Virus record (IMG/VR): IMGVR_UViG_3300027782_004716
Coordinates: 1 to 41,367 of that record
Direction: 5' to 3' (one strand)
Origin: a virus
Length of the DNA: 41,367 nt
A program made the translations under genes and the position numbers. Positions 961 through 41,236 of this stretch are shown here, piece by piece. The notes beneath the pieces were generated by a model. It was not told the DNA's origin and did no database searches. It worked only from the letters and a program-made list of their open reading frames with translations. The stretch's first letter is position 1. Each line of letters starts with the position of its first letter.

Positions 961-1035
961 CGCGGGGTGTAGCAGAGGTAGCTAGTCAGTCTCATAAGCT
1001 GAAGGTCGGTGGTTCGAGTCCATCCCCCGCAACCA
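961..1035 (+). tRNA. Initiator tRNA-fMet (CAT) with encoded CCA
   Basis: The 75-nt sequence folds as a full cloverleaf: acceptor CGCGGGG/CCCCGCA with a C1:A72 mismatch, D-stem TAGC/GCTA with A11:U24, anticodon loop CTCATAA, variable loop AGGTC, T-arm GGTGG/CCATC, then ACCA. The unpaired 1:72 position and A11:U24 are known hallmarks of bacterial initiator tRNA, and the acceptor, positions 8-9, anticodon loop and variable loop match E. coli tRNA-fMet. The anticodon stem is TCAGT/GCTGA, so the three consecutive G:C pairs of bacterial initiators are absent apart from the middle one. It lies directly before an rpoZ-like gene. Confidence 0.9.
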
Positions 1036-1054
1036 GTTTTTTACAAAGGCAAAA

Positions 1055-1282
1055 ATGAAACTAACCGACAGTCGTGGTCCCGAAATAGATACAGAACAAT
1101 GTGTAATACAAGCGGGAGGTAACAGGTTTGATCTTGTGCTGATCGCATCAGTAAGAGCCAGAGAGCTCAGTCGCAGACACAAATCAGCCGAACTTACTAC
1201 TCAGGTTAATTCTCCTGTAAGTGCCTTGCTAGATATTCAGTCAGGAAAGATAGGCAAAGAATATCTTAAAAAAGTAGAATAA
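1055..1282 (+). CDS. rpoZ: RNA polymerase omega subunit-like protein (RpoZ)
   Basis: This 75-residue protein carries the omega signature at residues 22-43 (GNRFDLVLIASVRARELSRR), nearly identical to the first conserved helix of bacterial RpoZ. A shorter second helix and a lysine-rich end follow; the E. coli protein is about 91 residues. Omega binds the beta-prime subunit and helps assemble RNA polymerase. A phage copy would be expected to enter the host polymerase and change its assembly, ppGpp response or factor use (inference). The gene lies between tRNA-fMet and tRNA-Gly and starts 19 bases after the former, preceded by AAAGGC. Confidence 0.85.
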   Translation: MKLTDSRGPEIDTEQCVIQAGGNRFDLVLIASVRARELSRRHKSAELTTQVNSPVSALLDIQSGKIGKEYLKKVE

Positions 1283-1297
1283 ATTCGTAAAGATAAT

Positions 1298-1371
1298 GCG
1301 GGATTAGTTTAATGGTAAAACAGCAGATTTCCAATCTTCGGTCAAGAGTTCGATTCTCTTATCCCGCTCCA
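1298..1371 (+). tRNA. tRNA-Gly (TCC) with encoded CCA
   Basis: The 74-nt gene has acceptor GCGGGAT/ATCCCGC, a D-arm with AATGGTA, anticodon loop TTTCCAA (anticodon TCC, glycine), a T-arm around GTTCGATTC, and an encoded CCA. The CDS that follows begins 8 bases after the CCA end, so the 3' end of the tRNA also supplies the AAGGA ribosome binding site of that gene. Confidence 0.9.
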
Positions 1372-1379
1372 AGGATACA

Positions 1380-1958
1380 ATGCAGGTAGTAGATCAAACA
1401 GAACTTGTACGTAAATTTAACTTTCGCAGTGTTATCACTGAGGAAGATGATGCTGCGGCCTGCCACATTATCAAGAGCATCATTGCCGATGGCAATTACT
1501 TTACCAACAGTCCTAAGTTTCAAACCAAAGAAAACATCTTTGCCAGACAAGAAGCGTTGTGGTTGAAATACCGTATGAGTTTTATGTTCTCAGTATTCAT
1601 GTATCTGGGTCGTGAAGTAAAGGTCTCTGAAATGATGGCCTGGAGTTTTATGACCAATCTCCAGGGTGCCGAAGATCGAGAAAAACTATGGCATCATCAT
1701 TGGCATCCAAAAAACCCCAATAATAAAATGTTCAGCGGAATATACTATCTGCACATCCCCGATGATGTCAATGATCGAGATTACTGCGGAACAGAGATAG
1801 CACCTAATGGTGCAGAGCAGGATGGCAAGTATTTCATCACCCCCACAGTAGGTCACTGGATCATTTATCCCGGCAATACATGGCATCGTCCAGGCATTGT
1901 GCAGAGTAACCAATATCGATTCGTATTGGCAGCAGATATAGAATGCTCCTATAGTTAA
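1380..1958 (+). CDS. Putative 2OG-Fe(II) oxygenase
   Basis: This 192-residue protein has the layout of the phage/cyanobacterial putative 2OG-Fe(II) oxygenase family: WHHHWHP (residues 104-110), SGIYYL (119-124), an acidic TEIAP (138-142), then WIIYPGNTWHRPG (160-172) and YRFVLA (179-184). H109, an acidic residue and H169 would bind iron; R180 would bind 2-oxoglutarate. The substrate is unknown. It starts 8 bases after tRNA-Gly, and its last codons run 14 bases into the tRNA-Thr gene, so it is part of a mixed tRNA/protein transcript. The family assignment is fairly secure, the function is not. Confidence 0.7.
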   Translation: MQVVDQTELVRKFNFRSVITEEDDAAACHIIKSIIADGNYFTNSPKFQTKENIFARQEALWLKYRMSFMFSVFMYLGREVKVSEMMAWSFMTNLQGAEDREKLWHHHWHPKNPNNKMFSGIYYLHIPDDVNDRDYCGTEIAPNGAEQDGKYFITPTVGHWIIYPGNTWHRPGIVQSNQYRFVLAADIECSYS

Positions 1959-2018
1959 ATGGCATAACGCATTCTTGGTAAGGATGTATTTCAAGTTCGA
2001 TTCTTGGTTGGAGCACCA
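1945..2018 (+). tRNA. tRNA-Thr (GGT) with encoded CCA
   Basis: The 74-nt gene has acceptor GCTCCTA/TTGGAGC with one mismatch, a D-arm with AAATGGCATAA, anticodon stem CATTC/GGATG with loop TTGGTAA (anticodon GGT, threonine), a T-arm CAAG/CTTG with TTCGATT, and ACCA. Its first 14 bases are also the last codons and the stop of the upstream oxygenase gene. Confidence 0.88.
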
Positions 2019-2019
2019 C

Positions 2020-2048
2020 TTGACAATTTTCAAATAAGACTGTATAAT
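2020..2048 (+). promoter_or_regulatory. Consensus sigma70 promoter
   Basis: TTGACA (2020-2025) and TATAAT (2043-2048) are both perfect and separated by exactly 17 bases. The -35 box begins 2 bases after tRNA-Thr. Transcription would start near 2055, leaving a leader of about 15 bases before the metallopeptidase ATG at 2070. A host-type promoter suggests early expression of the metallopeptidase/IF-1 genes (inference). Confidence 0.85.
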
Positions 2049-2069
2049 CAATACATACAAGGAGCTCTT

Positions 2070-2531
2070 ATGGACATTCAAGTATTAGCGAGAAAAAGCG
2101 TCAGCAAATTGCTGGTCGAAAACTGTCTACAGGTGTTTCGAAATGAATTGAAATTACAGAATAGTCGATATTCGCTGATAGTTGTTCCTGAAAGAGGAAT
2201 GAGTGTCGAAGAAGGAGTGCGAGGCAGTGTGTTCAAACTAGGACCTACTGTTATAGGCATGAGCATAGATACAGCTCTTGACACAGAAAGATTGATCATT
2301 GCACTGGCACATGAAATGGTGCATGTCAAGCAGTATGCTCGAGGGCAGATCACACATGGAAAGAATCTCAACAGCAGATTTTGGATGGGTAAAAAATTCA
2401 AGGGACACTATTATGATCTTCCTTGGGAAGTAGAAGCCTTTAGTAAAGAGCGAGTGTTAGCCAATAAGGTTTTTCAAATCATAGACAAGGCAGACGCTCA
2501 ATTAAAATCAAAGAAAAATGTCAAAAAGTGA
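2070..2531 (+). CDS. SprT-like zinc metallopeptidase
   Basis: This 153-residue protein has the zinc site HEMVH at residues 81-85 and a downstream WEVEAF (119-124), whose Glu is a candidate third ligand; the catalytic base is E82. This layout, with a basic lysine-rich tail, fits small phage SprT-like metalloproteases. Known SprT/Spartan proteins act on DNA-protein crosslinks, but the substrate here is unknown. The ATG at 2070 is chosen over an upstream TTG because it follows AAGGAG by 6 bases and fits the promoter at 2020-2048. The 3' end overlaps the IF-1 gene by 14 bases. Confidence 0.7.
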
Positions 2532-2736
2532 TCTTATAGAATTAACTGGTGCAGTTGAAGAAGTACTACCTGGCAACATGTTCAGGGTCAAGGTAGATAA
2601 TCTACCCAACGTACTTGTATGCTATACCAGCGGTAAATTGAAACAGCACAAGATAAAAATTATCTTAGGCGATAGAGTTAAAATTGAAGTCAGCCCATAC
2701 GATCTTACCAAAGGTCGTGTGACATATAGATTGTAA
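2518..2736 (+). CDS. infA: Translation initiation factor IF-1
   Basis: This 72-residue protein is the normal IF-1 length and is collinear with bacterial IF-1: an IELTG opening, [12 protein letters not shown] (17-28), [20 protein letters not shown] (38-57), and the terminal [13 protein letters not shown]. This is the OB fold that sits in the ribosomal A site and works with IF-2, IF-3 and initiator tRNA. The start lies inside the metallopeptidase end, so the two are probably translationally coupled. With the tRNA-fMet 1.5 kb upstream it suggests a phage-encoded initiation set. The identification is strong; a role in host takeover is inference. Confidence 0.95.
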
Positions 2737-2746
2737 GGAGTATATC

Positions 2747-3310
2747 ATGCCATGGATTCAAAACGTAGCACTCAGTGACATCCGCAAAGGGTTTCACATC
2801 AATGCAGGCCCAAATTCCATGCTGATTCAAATCTGCGATCCGCCTGGCGATTTTCCTATTCCTTTGCACACATTCAAAGAGGTTCATCAATTTGAGTTCT
2901 TGGATATTGAAGCCAATGACACATGTTTAGACGAAGCCATGCGTTGCAGTCAAGAGCAGGCCAACGAGCTGGTTCGACTGTTGCAACACGCATTGGAAAA
3001 TCGCATGAACGTTGTGGTGCATTGCCATGCTGGTGTTTGTCGCAGCGGGGCGGTCTGCGAAATTGGTGTTATGCTGGGCTTTGATGATACTGAAGCATTT
3101 CGCAGTCCTAACCTATTGGTCAAGCATCGCATGATGAAGGCTCTAGGCTGGACCTACGACGAGCAAGAACTCCATTCAATCAATGGGGTTACAATGCCTT
3201 CCGGAATAGTTATTCCAGCCAAGACCATAGATTGGACCAACGACAACGAAAAGATTTTTACCCTAGCTGCCGAGCGTAGAGCTCGTAGAATTAAAGAAGG
3301 TGATGTATGA
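2747..3310 (+). CDS. Tyrosine/dual-specificity phosphatase-like protein
   Basis: This 187-residue protein has the cysteine-phosphatase P-loop HCHAGVCRSG (residues 92-101) after a hydrophobic NVVV strand. C93 would be the nucleophile and R99 the phosphate-binding arginine. The size and a single domain fit phage protein-tyrosine-phosphatase-like proteins. The substrate could be a protein or an RNA 5' phosphate; nothing in the sequence decides. It starts 10 bases after infA with GGAG upstream and overlaps the next gene by 4 bases (ATGA). Confidence 0.8.
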   Translation: MPWIQNVALSDIRKGFHINAGPNSMLIQICDPPGDFPIPLHTFKEVHQFEFLDIEANDTCLDEAMRCSQEQANELVRLLQHALENRMNVVVHCHAGVCRSGAVCEIGVMLGFDDTEAFRSPNLLVKHRMMKALGWTYDEQELHSINGVTMPSGIVIPAKTIDWTNDNEKIFTLAAERRARRIKEGDV

Positions 3311-4336: not shown

Positions 4337-5542
4337 ATGCCATTACAGATTCGCAGGGGCACAGATGCTGAAAGATTAGCGATGACACAGCCGCTGGCTC
4401 AGGGAGAGCTGCTGTATGTAACCAACGCACAGAGATTATATATAGGAAACGGCACTACATTGGGCGGTGTTCAAATCACCGGTTACAACAATGAAGATGC
4501 ACAAGATGCTGCTGCTCTGCTTTTCAGCAACGGCGCACACACTGGGATAAACTTCACATACAACGATGCGACTGCTAGTTTGAGTGCTACGGTCGATTTA
4601 GCTAATTATCAAGGAACCATCGGAGCAACATCTTTCAAGGGTTCTATTTTTGCTGACGATTCTACACTACTAGTGGATGCTGTTTCAGGAACTATAGTAG
4701 GACCTGTAGTAGGCAATATTACTGGAAATCTCACAGGAAATGTTGTCGGTAATGTCACAGGTAATGTCACAGGTAATGTCACTGGTAGTGTGGTTGGCGA
4801 TTTAAAAGGATCAGTATTTGCTGATGATAGCACAGTATTAGTCGACGGTCCTGCTGGGCTGTTACGAGGTCAACTAATTGGTTCAGTAACTGGTTCAGTA
4901 ACCGGCGATGTTAAAGGTTCTATATTTGCTGACGGTTCTACATTGCTAGTAGATGCTATTGCAGGAGTAATTACAGGTGACGTATTAAATATTAATGTTA
5001 CTACAGATAACATTGTCTCGGGATCTATTATTATTAATAGAAATCCCCCAACTAATGGTATTGCTATATATTCAGAAGCATCTCTTGAAGACAACGTTGA
5101 TATTTTTAATATTATCACAGCACACGATGACGCATCTGCATCAGGATTGACATTTACTAGAAGTCGAGGAACAATTGCTGCTCCTACAGCATTAACCGCT
5201 AACAATGAGATTTTTTCTTTGTTATTTGCAGGTCAATCTTCTACTTCGATCGAACCTGCTGTTAGACTTGACGTCAAATTAGATGGCAGTGTTGGAACAG
5301 CGATTGTTCCTGGAAAACTAGTTATCGGAACAGCCAATGCATCGGGAGTGATGACTGATAGATTAACCATCGATTCCAAAGGAATTTCAACATTTGCAGG
5401 CATGGTTACACTGCCAACATATGCCAACGAAGCCGCAGCCAACGCAGCTGTGACAACTCCTGTGAACGGAATGATGTATTATGATTCTGGAGCCAGCAAG
5501 GTCAAAGCACGTCAGGGCGGTGCTTGGGTGGTATTAGCCTAA
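4337..5542 (+). CDS. Tail-fibre/receptor-binding structural protein with repeats
   Basis: This 401-residue protein opens with the phage fibre N-terminal motif (QIRRGTDAERL, residues 4-14; GELLYVTNAQRLYIGNG, 23-39). Three copies of a KGS(I/V)FAD(D/G)ST block follow at about 99-120, 155-176 and 191-212, interrupted by a run of G-N-V-T tetrads (125-153). The C-terminus (PVNGMMYYD...GGAWVVL) is typical of fibre proteins that end in a short beta-structured cap. The repeats suggest a trimeric beta-helical shaft. It is a late gene, and its stop codon overlaps the first island gene on the opposite strand. Confidence 0.85.
   Translation: MPLQIRRGTDAERLAMTQPLAQGELLYVTNAQRLYIGNGTTLGGVQITGYNNEDAQDAAALLFSNGAHTGINFTYNDATASLSATVDLANYQGTIGATSFKGSIFADDSTLLVDAVSGTIVGPVVGNITGNLTGNVVGNVTGNVTGNVTGSVVGDLKGSVFADDSTVLVDGPAGLLRGQLIGSVTGSVTGDVKGSIFADGSTLLVDAIAGVITGDVLNINVTTDNIVSGSIIINRNPPTNGIAIYSEASLEDNVDIFNIITAHDDASASGLTFTRSRGTIAAPTALTANNEIFSLLFAGQSSTSIEPAVRLDVKLDGSVGTAIVPGKLVIGTANASGVMTDRLTIDSKGISTFAGMVTLPTYANEAAANAAVTTPVNGMMYYDSGASKVKARQGGAWVVLA
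4712..4795 (+). repeat. Seven tandem 12-bp units in the fibre gene
   Basis: Units of the type GGTAATGTCACA are repeated in frame, encoding G-N-V-T tetrads. Two central units (4748-4771) are identical and the flanking ones diverge. Such short tandem units can change copy number by slippage and alter shaft length. Confidence 0.8.
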
Positions 5543-30788: not shown

Positions 30789-31491
30789 TAAAAATTTCCT
30801 TGTATATATATTCCATGTTCTGATTGCCCCATTTAACATGTTCTTGCATAGAACGTTGAAACATTATTTCTAGGTTGTATTTGTTATCAACAATAGCCCC
30901 GGTTTCAGCCAACCTAAATTTTGCTGACTCGTGTATAATACCATCCATATATTCTGCATCAACGAACGGATCATTGGTAGAAATACCGCCGTACCAATCA
31001 ATTGTTTGCATTTGACCATCTTTAATAAAATGACAATGCGGATACATTGTCAACTTATAAGTACCTTCCTTGAATAGATCTGTCATTATAAAATGCAGTT
31101 GTTCTTTCCAATTGCTACAATAATTATCTAAATTTCTACCACTGTAAATAATTTCATTACAGGTTTCTCCCTGCCACTCAAAAAATACCTGCTTACTATG
31201 ATAATCAATATCTATAATCGTAGGAGTATATGGTTTATCTTTATATTTTAACAGATTATCTATTTCATTTTTCCAAAACCAATCAACTACATTTTGAGTA
31301 TATTTTTCTCTAATAGGATCTTCTTGTCGTTGATATTTGTTTGCCCAATCATAATTGGCACAAAAAATCGTGCCTTCTGGATTCAATAATGGTTCATAGG
31401 TCTGCTGCGACATGCACCTAGTGCCGTCATCGTCTATCTTTAGAAAGGGTATCCAGTTACTAATCGAAGTCACGAACTTTATATCCCACAC
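30781..31491 (-). CDS. Kinase-like fold protein, degenerate (paralogue of 18779)
   Basis: This 236-residue protein starts with GTG, at 31491 or a little later. VVDWFWKNEIDNLL (69-82), YTPTIIDIDYHSKQVFFEWQG (about 89-109) and YKLTMYPHCHFIKDGQMQTI (145-164) match in order the helix, hinge and catalytic-loop segments of the gene at 18779. As there, the HxD catalytic loop is altered (YPHCH), and a final IDW follows. It lies between an oxygenase and the cold-shock/hydroxylase fusion. Confidence 0.5.
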   Translation of the reverse strand: MWDIKFVTSISNWIPFLKIDDDGTRCMSQQTYEPLLNPEGTIFCANYDWANKYQRQEDPIREKYTQNVVDWFWKNEIDNLLKYKDKPYTPTIIDIDYHSKQVFFEWQGETCNEIIYSGRNLDNYCSNWKEQLHFIMTDLFKEGTYKLTMYPHCHFIKDGQMQTIDWYGGISTNDPFVDAEYMDGIIHESAKFRLAETGAIVDNKYNLEIMFQRSMQEHVKWGNQNMEYIYKEIFNA

Positions 31492-32281
31492 GTGGCTGGT
31501 CGCTAAAGAAACAACTGGCTATCCACTTGGTGCCTTTGGTGATTGGTCGACTTTCGTGAATCGTACTCCAGTTCGTTGCTTCATCATACCCTTGTTGAAA
31601 ATATAGAAAAGATCCAGCCTTGGGCTGTATCTCTATATTTAATTTTGGAAAATAAGTTTGGCCGCCTACAAAATTATCATTTAAAAAGAATATACCAGTG
31701 CCGACCCTATCACCGCCGTATCTATAATAGTTTATTTGTTTTGGATCATAGGGGTAATCGTGATGTAGATCTAAATACTGCCCCTCGACATAGTTATAGA
31801 TATCTATGGCTTCGATGTGGCTGTACGGAATTTTAGCAGAATTTACAATTGCTGTGGCCAACATATCGTAATGATAAGGATCTACTCCAAGACTGATTCC
31901 CCTGTTTTCAACCAGTTCTGTTACTTGAGCGTACGACTCTTGTCTACTTTGTGTTCCAGAATTAGGATTCATTCCGTTCCTAGAATGTCGATCGATGATG
32001 CTGTTACATGCTTCGATGGGCAATAGATTATCAAAAACACTTATCCGTGGAATGTTTAAATGTTTGTGTTCAAACACTGAGGAAAGTACGCTAACCTTGA
32101 TAGCCTTACTGCCCTCATCTACTTCTATCCTTTCAAACGATACCTGTTGAAGTTCAAATAATACCTGAGGGTCTTGGTTTATGTCCCATTTTTCTACCAA
32201 GATAGAAGATCCATCGTTATCCGATAAGATAAATCCATAGTCTTTAGCATCGTTAAACCATTTAACTATTCCGGTTTCCAT
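31460..32281 (-). CDS. Cold-shock domain fused to a prolyl 4-hydroxylase-type oxygenase
   Basis: In this 273-residue protein, residues 1-66 are a cold-shock domain: METGIVKWFNDAKDYGFILS holds the RNP1 motif, SILVEKW the degenerate RNP2, and QQVSFE...KAIKVSVL the last strands. Residues 75-262 are a P4H-type domain: YLDLHHDYPYD (169-179; H173, D175), GTGIFFLND, GGQTYFP, IHESRPITKGTKWIASCFF (241-259; H242, K252). Cold-shock domains bind single-stranded RNA/DNA, so hydroxylation may be directed to a nucleic acid or to a protein bound to one (inference). Start ATG 32281, TAATG-coupled to the methyltransferase. Confidence 0.88.
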   Translation of the reverse strand: METGIVKWFNDAKDYGFILSDNDGSSILVEKWDINQDPQVLFELQQVSFERIEVDEGSKAIKVSVLSSVFEHKHLNIPRISVFDNLLPIEACNSIIDRHSRNGMNPNSGTQSRQESYAQVTELVENRGISLGVDPYHYDMLATAIVNSAKIPYSHIEAIDIYNYVEGQYLDLHHDYPYDPKQINYYRYGGDRVGTGIFFLNDNFVGGQTYFPKLNIEIQPKAGSFLYFQQGYDEATNWSTIHESRPITKGTKWIASCFFSDQPRVGYKVRDFD

Positions 32282-32871
32282 TATTGTTTTCCAATGATCA
32301 TAAATCGTTTGTACAATGGCAATTCTAATTCTCCTGCCCAAATAATATCGATCTGGCACTGTTTTTTAAATTGTTCTAAATCTGCGGCAATGCGAACATG
32401 TTCTGGTATATTATAATTATTGCTTTGCAGAACTAACAAACTATTGTGCGGCATGCCACTCAACCACAGATCGTATTGTTCTTGAGTTATGTGTTCGCAA
32501 CTGGTATTAATAATTACGTCTGCATCACTGCGAATGGCACACATGTCTGCAGTAACAGCATGAAACTTCCCACTCATTTCTTCTTTTTTGTTCATCATAG
32601 TGGCAATAGGTTGACAACTAGGATCAATATCAACACTACGAATATTTGTAATATAAATGTCACTTTGAAACAGCATGCTGGCCAATGTTCCTACCCAACC
32701 GCCATGTATATCTATACTTACAAACTTATTAACGTTCTTACGTAGATTAGCAATCAACCATTCTTTGCTTTTTAGTTGGCCGCTCCAAAACGCATCCATA
32801 GTACGTATGGGGTCTGGACTTTGCCTAATGGCCTGCATCCAATAATGTAGGTGTTCGGTGTCAATGTCCAT
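32281..32871 (-). CDS. Class I SAM-dependent methyltransferase
   Basis: This 196-residue Rossmann-fold protein has KFVSIDIHGGWVGTLA (49-64, motif I), IRSVDIDPSC (77-86, motif II with acidic residue for the SAM ribose) and ADVIINTSCEHI (117-128, motif IV). It belongs to the small phage methyltransferases with TSCEH; the target is unknown. The ATG at 32871 overlaps the DUF2061 stop by 11 bases and the stop is shared with the cold-shock/hydroxylase start, so expression is coupled. Confidence 0.75.
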   Translation of the reverse strand: MDIDTEHLHYWMQAIRQSPDPIRTMDAFWSGQLKSKEWLIANLRKNVNKFVSIDIHGGWVGTLASMLFQSDIYITNIRSVDIDPSCQPIATMMNKKEEMSGKFHAVTADMCAIRSDADVIINTSCEHITQEQYDLWLSGMPHNSLLVLQSNNYNIPEHVRIAADLEQFKKQCQIDIIWAGELELPLYKRFMIIGKQ

Positions 32872-40400: not shown

Positions 40401-40731
40401 ACTCGAACCGCAGACTCCTGCAGAAGGTATTTTAAAACGAGGTCAATGGGGTGACGCCATGACCTACCAAGTCACTTGCGAATGTCACGACGCCAATCAC
40501 GATCACAATGTCTGGGTCGAAGCAGACGACCATCGTGTGACTGTTACTACCTACACCACACAAAAATCCAAATGGTGGAGTCTAAATCGTTGGCAGACTA
40601 TTTGGATTCTACTTACCAAAGGCTATGTTGAGCATGAAGCCAATATCATTATGACTGAGCAACAGGCACTGAACTACGCAGAAACATTGAAGAAAGCAAT
40701 TAAAGATGTCAAAAATTTCAAGCAGCCCTGA
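40381..40731 (+). CDS. Phage protein of unknown function
   Basis: In this roughly 116-residue protein CECHDANHDHNVWVEADDHRV (first 20 of about 33-53) is a Cys/His-rich strand pair that could hold a metal, followed by KWWSLNRWQTIWILLTKGYVE, which looks like a hydrophobic helix, and a C-terminal helix. Two adjacent in-frame ATG codons (40378, 40381) are possible starts. It overlaps both neighbours, by 20 and 26 bases. Confidence 0.6.
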   Translation: MSKASTELEPQTPAEGILKRGQWGDAMTYQVTCECHDANHDHNVWVEADDHRVTVTTYTTQKSKWWSLNRWQTIWILLTKGYVEHEANIIMTEQQALNYAETLKKAIKDVKNFKQP

Positions 40732-41236
40732 ACGAAATACTTTTCAGTTAGACAATGCCAAACGCCGTGCTGAGGAAAAGGGCGAAGAAGTTCCAGAGTA
40801 CTATGAAAACTTTTGGAAATCGGCCAAAGAGCAAGATGAAGAAAATCTTCTAGATCCAGACTGGCAGAAAGACAACATGGAATATGACCTTCGCAGTAGC
40901 GAATGGATGTGTGCCAAAGCTCGAAACTCTGATGCCTATGCACAAAATCTCTATGCGGCCATGTGCAATATGCAGTTTATCAAACTGGATGTTTTACCTA
41001 TCCTAAAAAATCAACGGTGGAGTGCCAGCTGGAGACATGCTGGCGGCATTGTGGCAGATATGCTACAACAAGGTGACTACATAGATTGGTACTGTAGTGG
41101 TATGGGGGAGGGATTGGGCAACGGTGATGCCGATGGCACCAAAGGATATGTACCTGAAGGTCAAGTAACTGAAGAAATAGCCAATGACCTTAAAACTTTA
41201 GGCTGGCTAGCCATGGAGTGGGACGACGAAGAATGA
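40706..41236 (+). CDS. Phage protein of unknown function
   Basis: This 176-residue protein has an acidic N-terminal half. The C-terminal half has LKNQRWSASWRHAGGIVADM and YIDWYCSGMGEG, followed by a Gly/Asp loop and an acidic end. The WRHAGG...YCSGMGEG pattern is seen in conserved phage proteins without known role (memory). It ends in an ATGA overlap with the next gene. Confidence 0.6.
   Translation: MSKISSSPERNTFQLDNAKRRAEEKGEEVPEYYENFWKSAKEQDEENLLDPDWQKDNMEYDLRSSEWMCAKARNSDAYAQNLYAAMCNMQFIKLDVLPILKNQRWSASWRHAGGIVADMLQQGDYIDWYCSGMGEGLGNGDADGTKGYVPEGQVTEEIANDLKTLGWLAMEWDDEE

Follow-up and report, generated by a model that had tools for sequence, protein, structure and literature searches.

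A freshwater jumbo-phage fragment with its own IF-1 and an initiator-type tRNA of altered anticodon stem

Gene order around the initiator tRNA

The stretch of DNA analysed, referred to here as the window, is an IMG/VR virus record of 41,367 bases, a fragment of a freshwater jumbo phage with its own initiator tRNA and translation initiation factor IF-1. Its left end contains the following features:

40–615, + strand: p191, a conserved protein preceding the RNA module (ORF; homologues at the equivalent position; dN/dS 0.065)
616–827, + strand: conserved non-coding RNA directly 5′ of the initiator tRNA, with a covarying 3′ domain (conservation, alignment A3, pair counts)
961–1035, + strand: predicted initiator tRNA (CAU) with C1:A72, A11:U24 and anticodon stem AGU/GCU (ARAGORN, Rfam, initiator model, identity)
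1055–1282, + strand: RNA polymerase omega (RpoZ)-like protein, 75 aa (PF01192, PDB omega chains, homologues)
1298–1371, + strand: tRNA-Gly (UCC) (ARAGORN, Rfam tRNA model)
1380–1958, + strand: 2OG-Fe(II) oxygenase-like protein (PF13759 at 26.5 bits, slightly below the cut-off of 27; phrog_81)
1945–2018, + strand: tRNA-Thr (GGU), overlapping the end of the oxygenase ORF (ARAGORN, Rfam tRNA model)
2070–2531, + strand: HExxH metallopeptidase-like protein (HEMVH motif in the ORF; phrog_10499)
2518–2736, + strand: translation initiation factor IF-1, 72 aa (PF01176 and TIGR00008 above cut-offs; dN/dS 0.05)
2747–3310, + strand: dual-specificity/tyrosine phosphatase-like protein, the next gene (Pfam; synteny)

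An IF-1 search of IMG/VR yielded 301 relatives, from which 80 loci were kept. The order p191, initiator tRNA, omega, (tRNA-Pro), tRNA-Gly, oxygenase, tRNA-Thr, peptidase, IF-1 and phosphatase was widespread among relatives, with local rearrangements. Median dN/dS values against relatives were 0.16 for omega, 0.08 for the oxygenase, 0.09 for the peptidase, 0.065 for p191 (which had no Pfam or PHROG match) and about 0.05 for IF-1, indicating strong purifying selection on the latter. Further to the right, positions 5500–37400 contain a long series of 2OG-oxygenase-like and radical SAM proteins, one DegT aminotransferase and few recognisable structural genes; the ORF at 31460–32359 joins a cold-shock domain to a 2OG-Fe(II) oxygenase.

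An earlier note on this DNA had reported a full-length IF-1 about 1.5 kb from the tRNA and on the same strand, and profile searches bore this out; the omega-like ORF, the tRNA-Gly and tRNA-Thr genes in between and the conserved RNA had escaped that note. The product of 2518–2736 matched Pfam PF01176 at 67.1 bits (cut-off 30.2) and the NCBIfam infA equivalog TIGR00008 at 91.7 bits (cut-off 61.15) over residues 3–72, that is, full-length, and the gene starts 1.48 kb downstream of the initiator tRNA. The phage IF-1s keep the core of the protein; in place of the E. coli loop GKMRKNYI they have GKLKQHKI or a near variant. Around 17 IF-1 loci have no tRNA, and in one of these (L065) IF-1 lies beside homologues of the right half of the window, so the position of IF-1 differs among related phages. 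A second IF-1 beyond the right end of the window, placed as in L065 next to the homologue of 40706–41236, was considered and rejected: none is present up to the end of the window, and a single intact copy is found in whole records. The IF-1 of Acinetobacter phage MD-2021a was set aside as a phage case, its context being chromosomal.

The ORF at 1055–1282 scored 29.5 bits against PF01192 (cut-off 26) and 23.0 bits against TIGR00690, slightly below the cut-off of 23.6, and matched omega chains in the PDB with an E value of 6e-6; the omega homologues adjoining the initiator tRNA in relatives are stronger, reaching 56.8 bits on PF01192. The 345 bases preceding the tRNA are non-coding and conserved, with up to 96% identity over 100 bases, and the 616–827 block is 85–96% identical in loci whose flanking proteins are 64–70% identical. 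The 3′ domain of this RNA covaries, changes on both sides of a pair being found in 28 cells versus 6.8 in shuffles (kinship ignored). The RNA had no Rfam match, even at E 5, and the minimum-energy fold of the window copy alone was not unusual (z = -1.1). An independent scan located it in at least 119 viral stretches. In 46 of 83 usable RNA loci an initiator tRNA followed within 1 kb downstream, with stems AGU/GCU (32), GGU/GCC (10) or AGG/CCU (4). Of the RNA-anchored loci, 35 of 43 had omega no more than 2 kb away, and 5 of 20 had IF-1 no more than 6 kb away; in two records whose IF-1 is distant (G047 and G048), no more than about 450 bases separate the omega-like gene from the initiator. Judged from these positions, the omega-like gene and the 616–827 RNA are closer neighbours of the initiator tRNA than is IF-1. 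Additional RNA-like modules were seen in some relatives between the 616–827-type RNA and the tRNA.

The initiator tRNA and its anticodon stem

ARAGORN called a tRNA-Met (CAT) at 961–1035 on the + strand, and the Rfam tRNA model matched positions 963–1029 at 46.4 bits. By segment, the sequence reads CGCGGGG TG TAGC AGAGGTA GCTA G TCAGT CTCATAA GCTGA AGGTC GGTGG TTCGAGT CCATC CCCCGCA ACCA. The anticodon CAU sits in the loop CUCAUAA, position 1:72 is C:A and forms no Watson-Crick pair, and 11:24 is A:U, in agreement with the complete initiator tRNA described in the earlier note. Position 1:72 was unpaired in 40 of the 40 rows of alignment A1, which were partly chosen for that feature. An initiator model gave 96.2 bits for this tRNA, a sequence contained in its training set, versus 41.6 bits for the next tRNA in the window. 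Further, identity was 79–83% to initiators with a GGG/CCC stem versus 61–65% to CAU elongator or Ile2-type tRNAs, which argues for an initiator. An elongator Met or Ile2 identity, a possibility raised in the earlier note, was ruled out by 1:72, 11:24 and percent identity. By sequence, the 961–1035 gene is thus classed as an initiator tRNA.

By the textbook account, bacterial initiators are marked out by three G:C pairs at 29–31/39–41. The window tRNA has the anticodon stem UCAGU/GCUGA, in which the pairs are A29:U41, G30:C40 and U31:G39; only 30:40 is G:C, and the replacement of the other two by A:U and U:G, noted previously, is confirmed by direct reading.

An initiator-type tRNA with the loop CUCAUAA was present in 43 of the 80 IF-1 loci kept, and its stem was AGU/GCU in all but two of them (L044, GGU/GCC; L056, AGG/CCU). 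Among 24 distinct initiators from IF-1 loci, G30:C40 was found in all 24, and U31:G39 and A29:U41 in 23 each, although these loci are related and the counts are not independent. Of the 282 other distinct tRNAs in these loci, 22 had U31:G39 (kinship ignored). The fixation of this pair in the initiators compared with the other tRNAs rules out drift as the main cause of the stem change. Pairs 27:43 and 28:42 vary freely, with compensation, in the initiator alignment; some rows of that alignment were found through the AGU/GCU pattern, hence its frequencies at 29:41 and 31:39 are biased.

The matches listed from a viral scan neutral with respect to the stem included AGG/CCU, GGG/CCC, UGG/CCA, GGU/GCC, AGU/GCU and others. 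Since viral initiators with GGG/CCC exist, a phage initiator can do without the altered stem. G30:C40 was kept in nearly all initiator-type tRNAs among the viral matches listed, exceptions being, for example, L124 and L194. In cultured phages the initiator stem is GGU/GCC in D482 and PAU, AGG/CCU in XbC2 and UGG/CCA in RcXuper, and the phage initiators with AGG/CCU or UGG/CCA retain G31:C39. The KVP40-like Vibrio phages KVP40 and nt-1 have an initiator-type tRNA-Met with the same AGU/GCU stem as the window; unlike in the window, no IF-1 was found in them, and their 1:72 positions also differ, being U1:U72 in KVP40 and U1:A72 with one extra unpaired acceptor-stem base in nt-1. Initiators that combine U1:A72 with a 3′ acceptor strand of eight bases (one extra unpaired base) were seen in Vibrio and other phages (L337:3000, L345:999, L341:1000, L208, L257, L262, L267 and L272).

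The AGU/GCU pattern was found in 46 stretches in 84,980 cellular genomes, mostly of Staskawiczbacteria and related Patescibacteria, the others being three contigs from Methylococcaceae, two from Clostridia and a small number of archaeal elongators. Among 299 genomes of Pseudomonadota, a GGG/CCC stem was found in 171 and an AGG/CCU stem in 67. Since cellular initiators depart from it too, the set of three G:C pairs is, as far as these gene sequences tell, a usual but not strictly defining feature of initiators. The cellular initiators with AGG/CCU (many Pseudomonadota) or AGU/GCU (Staskawiczbacteria and related Patescibacteria) keep G:C at 30:40 and change 29:41 or 31:39, as the window does; the window element is viral and unlike the usual bacterial initiator. 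Mycoplasma initiators have AU/GC/GU, the U31:G39 of the window being the reverse of the mycoplasma G:U. Three assemblies (Methylocucumis oryzae, Methylococcaceae UBA6146 and a Clostridia MAG) contain both stem types, with the GGG/CCC initiator on one contig and the AGU/GCU initiator on another; an IMG/VR viral contig (L269) has a tRNA identical to the AGU/GCU one of Methylocucumis. Host mimicry was rejected as an explanation, given that AGU/GCU is nearly absent from cells outside Patescibacteria and that assemblies holding both stem types exist. The recurrence in phages of an altered stem that bacteria almost never use suggests selection. The AGU/GCU initiators of Staskawiczbacteria and related Patescibacteria (L284-L293, L305-L327) have an unusual T-loop, TGCAATT.

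IF-1 and the initiator tRNA across phage genomes

A clear initiator tRNA was present in 9 of 10 IF-1-bearing phage records larger than 200 kb (G118, G119, G125, G038, G047, G048, Phosso, LR756511 and Lak-C1), the initiator of the tenth, LR756508, being ambiguous. DAC16 (178 kb) has IF-1 and no clear initiator. Among eight large phages without IF-1 (KVP40, phiKZ, G, RaK2, SPN3US, 201phi2-1, PBS1 and PAU), two had an initiator. Counted by genome, and ignoring shared ancestry, the difference gives a Fisher p of 0.013; counted by lineage (4 of 6 versus 2 of 8), p is 0.28. Of 50 records whose initiator is AGU/GCU, 4 had an IF-1 above the cut-off, as did 1 of a further 50; many of these records are fragments. 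In G038, G047 and G048, roughly 100 kb or more separates IF-1 from the initiator. These unlinked genomes, together with the 5 of 20 RNA-anchored loci mentioned above, speak against a tight IF-1/initiator module. The idea that the two genes form a set, as the earlier note had it, is supported as regards co-occurrence by genome and not supported as regards a fixed pair. IF-3 was also present in Phosso and LR756511; it was absent from the window-clade records tested.

The earlier note had further supposed a shift in start-codon choice, or an advantage for leaderless or weak-RBS messages, and this left no genomic trace. In 170 long ORFs of the clade the start chosen, by a heuristic, was ATG in 158 (93%), and a Shine-Dalgarno match of 4 nt or more preceded 50% of first ATGs versus 12% of internal ATGs. 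Leaderless or weak-RBS messages were thus discarded as a candidate, the clade having ordinary Shine-Dalgarno sites and ATG starts.

Possible roles of a phage initiator

There is perhaps an even chance that the phage brings a supplementary working initiator (plus, separately, IF-1) with which initiation is sustained while the infection proceeds. The host's own initiator tRNA might run short or be destroyed in the infected cell; the phage tRNA would then supply extra initiator, and we infer that it would be charged, formylated and used, compensating for the host initiator lost. The features expected to serve formylation, unpaired 1:72 and A11:U24, are kept, as is G30:C40, the pair that 16S A1339 would grip, the flanking pairs being changed to A29:U41 and U31:G39. 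In E. coli, A1339 of 16S rRNA contacts pair 30-40 and G1338 contacts 29-41, and a swap of 30-40 cuts translation 20-fold (PMC11497404); a UA/CG/AU triple mutant is inactive (PMC10486304). The window tRNA keeps 30:40 and would thus be likely to work as an initiator. The supply of extra initiator also fits the rescue of defence-cut host tRNAs by phage tRNAs, demonstrated for tRNA-Tyr and tRNA-Lys (PMC11555353).

The changes at 31:39 and 29:41 could, in addition or instead, protect the phage initiator from cleavage by VapC or other host nucleases, which we regard as possible but rather doubtful. VapCs of several bacteria cut tRNA-fMet between the anticodon stem and loop, and both sequence and stem-loop structure matter to them (PMC8522696), so a change at 31:39 could also be protective; U31:G39, the most constrained of the changes, lies at the stem-loop border, outside the pairs gripped by A1339 and G1338 (PMC11497404), and it has been proposed in general that phage tRNAs differ near sites of nuclease attack (PMC10264068). 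However, the loop CUCAUAA is unchanged, the AGG/CCU and UGG/CCA phage initiators retain G31:C39, and enteric-host phages facing such a VapC generally avoid tRNA-fMet genes (PMC10264068). Anticodon-nuclease-evading phage tRNAs (PMC10264068, PMC11555353) could likewise replace a defence-cut host tRNA; in the window the changes are in the stem, not the loop, and resistance would be putative.

Somewhat less probable is ordinary gene capture, with the tRNA and IF-1 as accessory genes of big phages and the stem a product of relaxed constraint or descent. The many stem types among phage initiators and the relatedness of the loci are in its favour, but U31:G39 is fixed in one clade while neighbouring pairs vary, it recurs in unrelated phages and Patescibacteria, and the dN/dS of IF-1 is that of a constrained gene. 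A takeover of initiation, in which the phage initiator and IF-1 jointly alter start-site choice on the 30S subunit toward phage messages, seems the least probable. The co-occurrence in nine of the ten large IF-1 records, the IF-3 of Phosso and LR756511 and the altered IF-1 loop speak for it; against it, the two genes lie far apart in several genomes, no IF-1 was found in most of the viral records that have an initiator, and Shine-Dalgarno use and start codons are ordinary. The selection signal on the stem does not yet suggest that the two genes form a takeover pair.

A wider proposal is that a second class of initiators, repeatedly evolved by phages and with A29:U41, G30:C40 and U31:G39, might pass the P-site check through the middle pair and escape host nucleases that recognise the GGG/CCC stem, being deployed here with the upstream RNA, an omega-like subunit and often IF-1; we offer this tentatively, as a reading with the odds clearly against it.

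Phages provide a natural experiment on which G:C pair matters, the middle one being kept and the outer two changed in nearly all viral initiators examined, in line with ribosome structures. What a phage-encoded initiator does is part of the old question of what phage tRNAs do. The same stem is present in nt-1, whose host is Vibrio natriegens, which makes phage-initiator function directly testable. For the recurrent stem signature, the omega linkage and the upstream RNA, no description was found in the open literature, which is weak evidence of novelty as most subscription journals lay outside its scope. Initiator-type tRNA-Met genes are already present in deposited phage records, and IF-1 in huge phages is already known: Al-Shayeb et al. 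2020 (PMC7162821) reported huge phages encoding IF1 and IF3, read as redirecting host translation. IF-1 is common to these phages and the window; the main text of that paper does not contain the word 'initiator', and in the window the initiator tRNA has, in addition, the omega-like gene and the conserved RNA as neighbours. In two giant phages, L328 (PV764938.1) and L330 (LR756511.1), IF-1, IF-3 and the initiator tRNA were all present, at distant sites.
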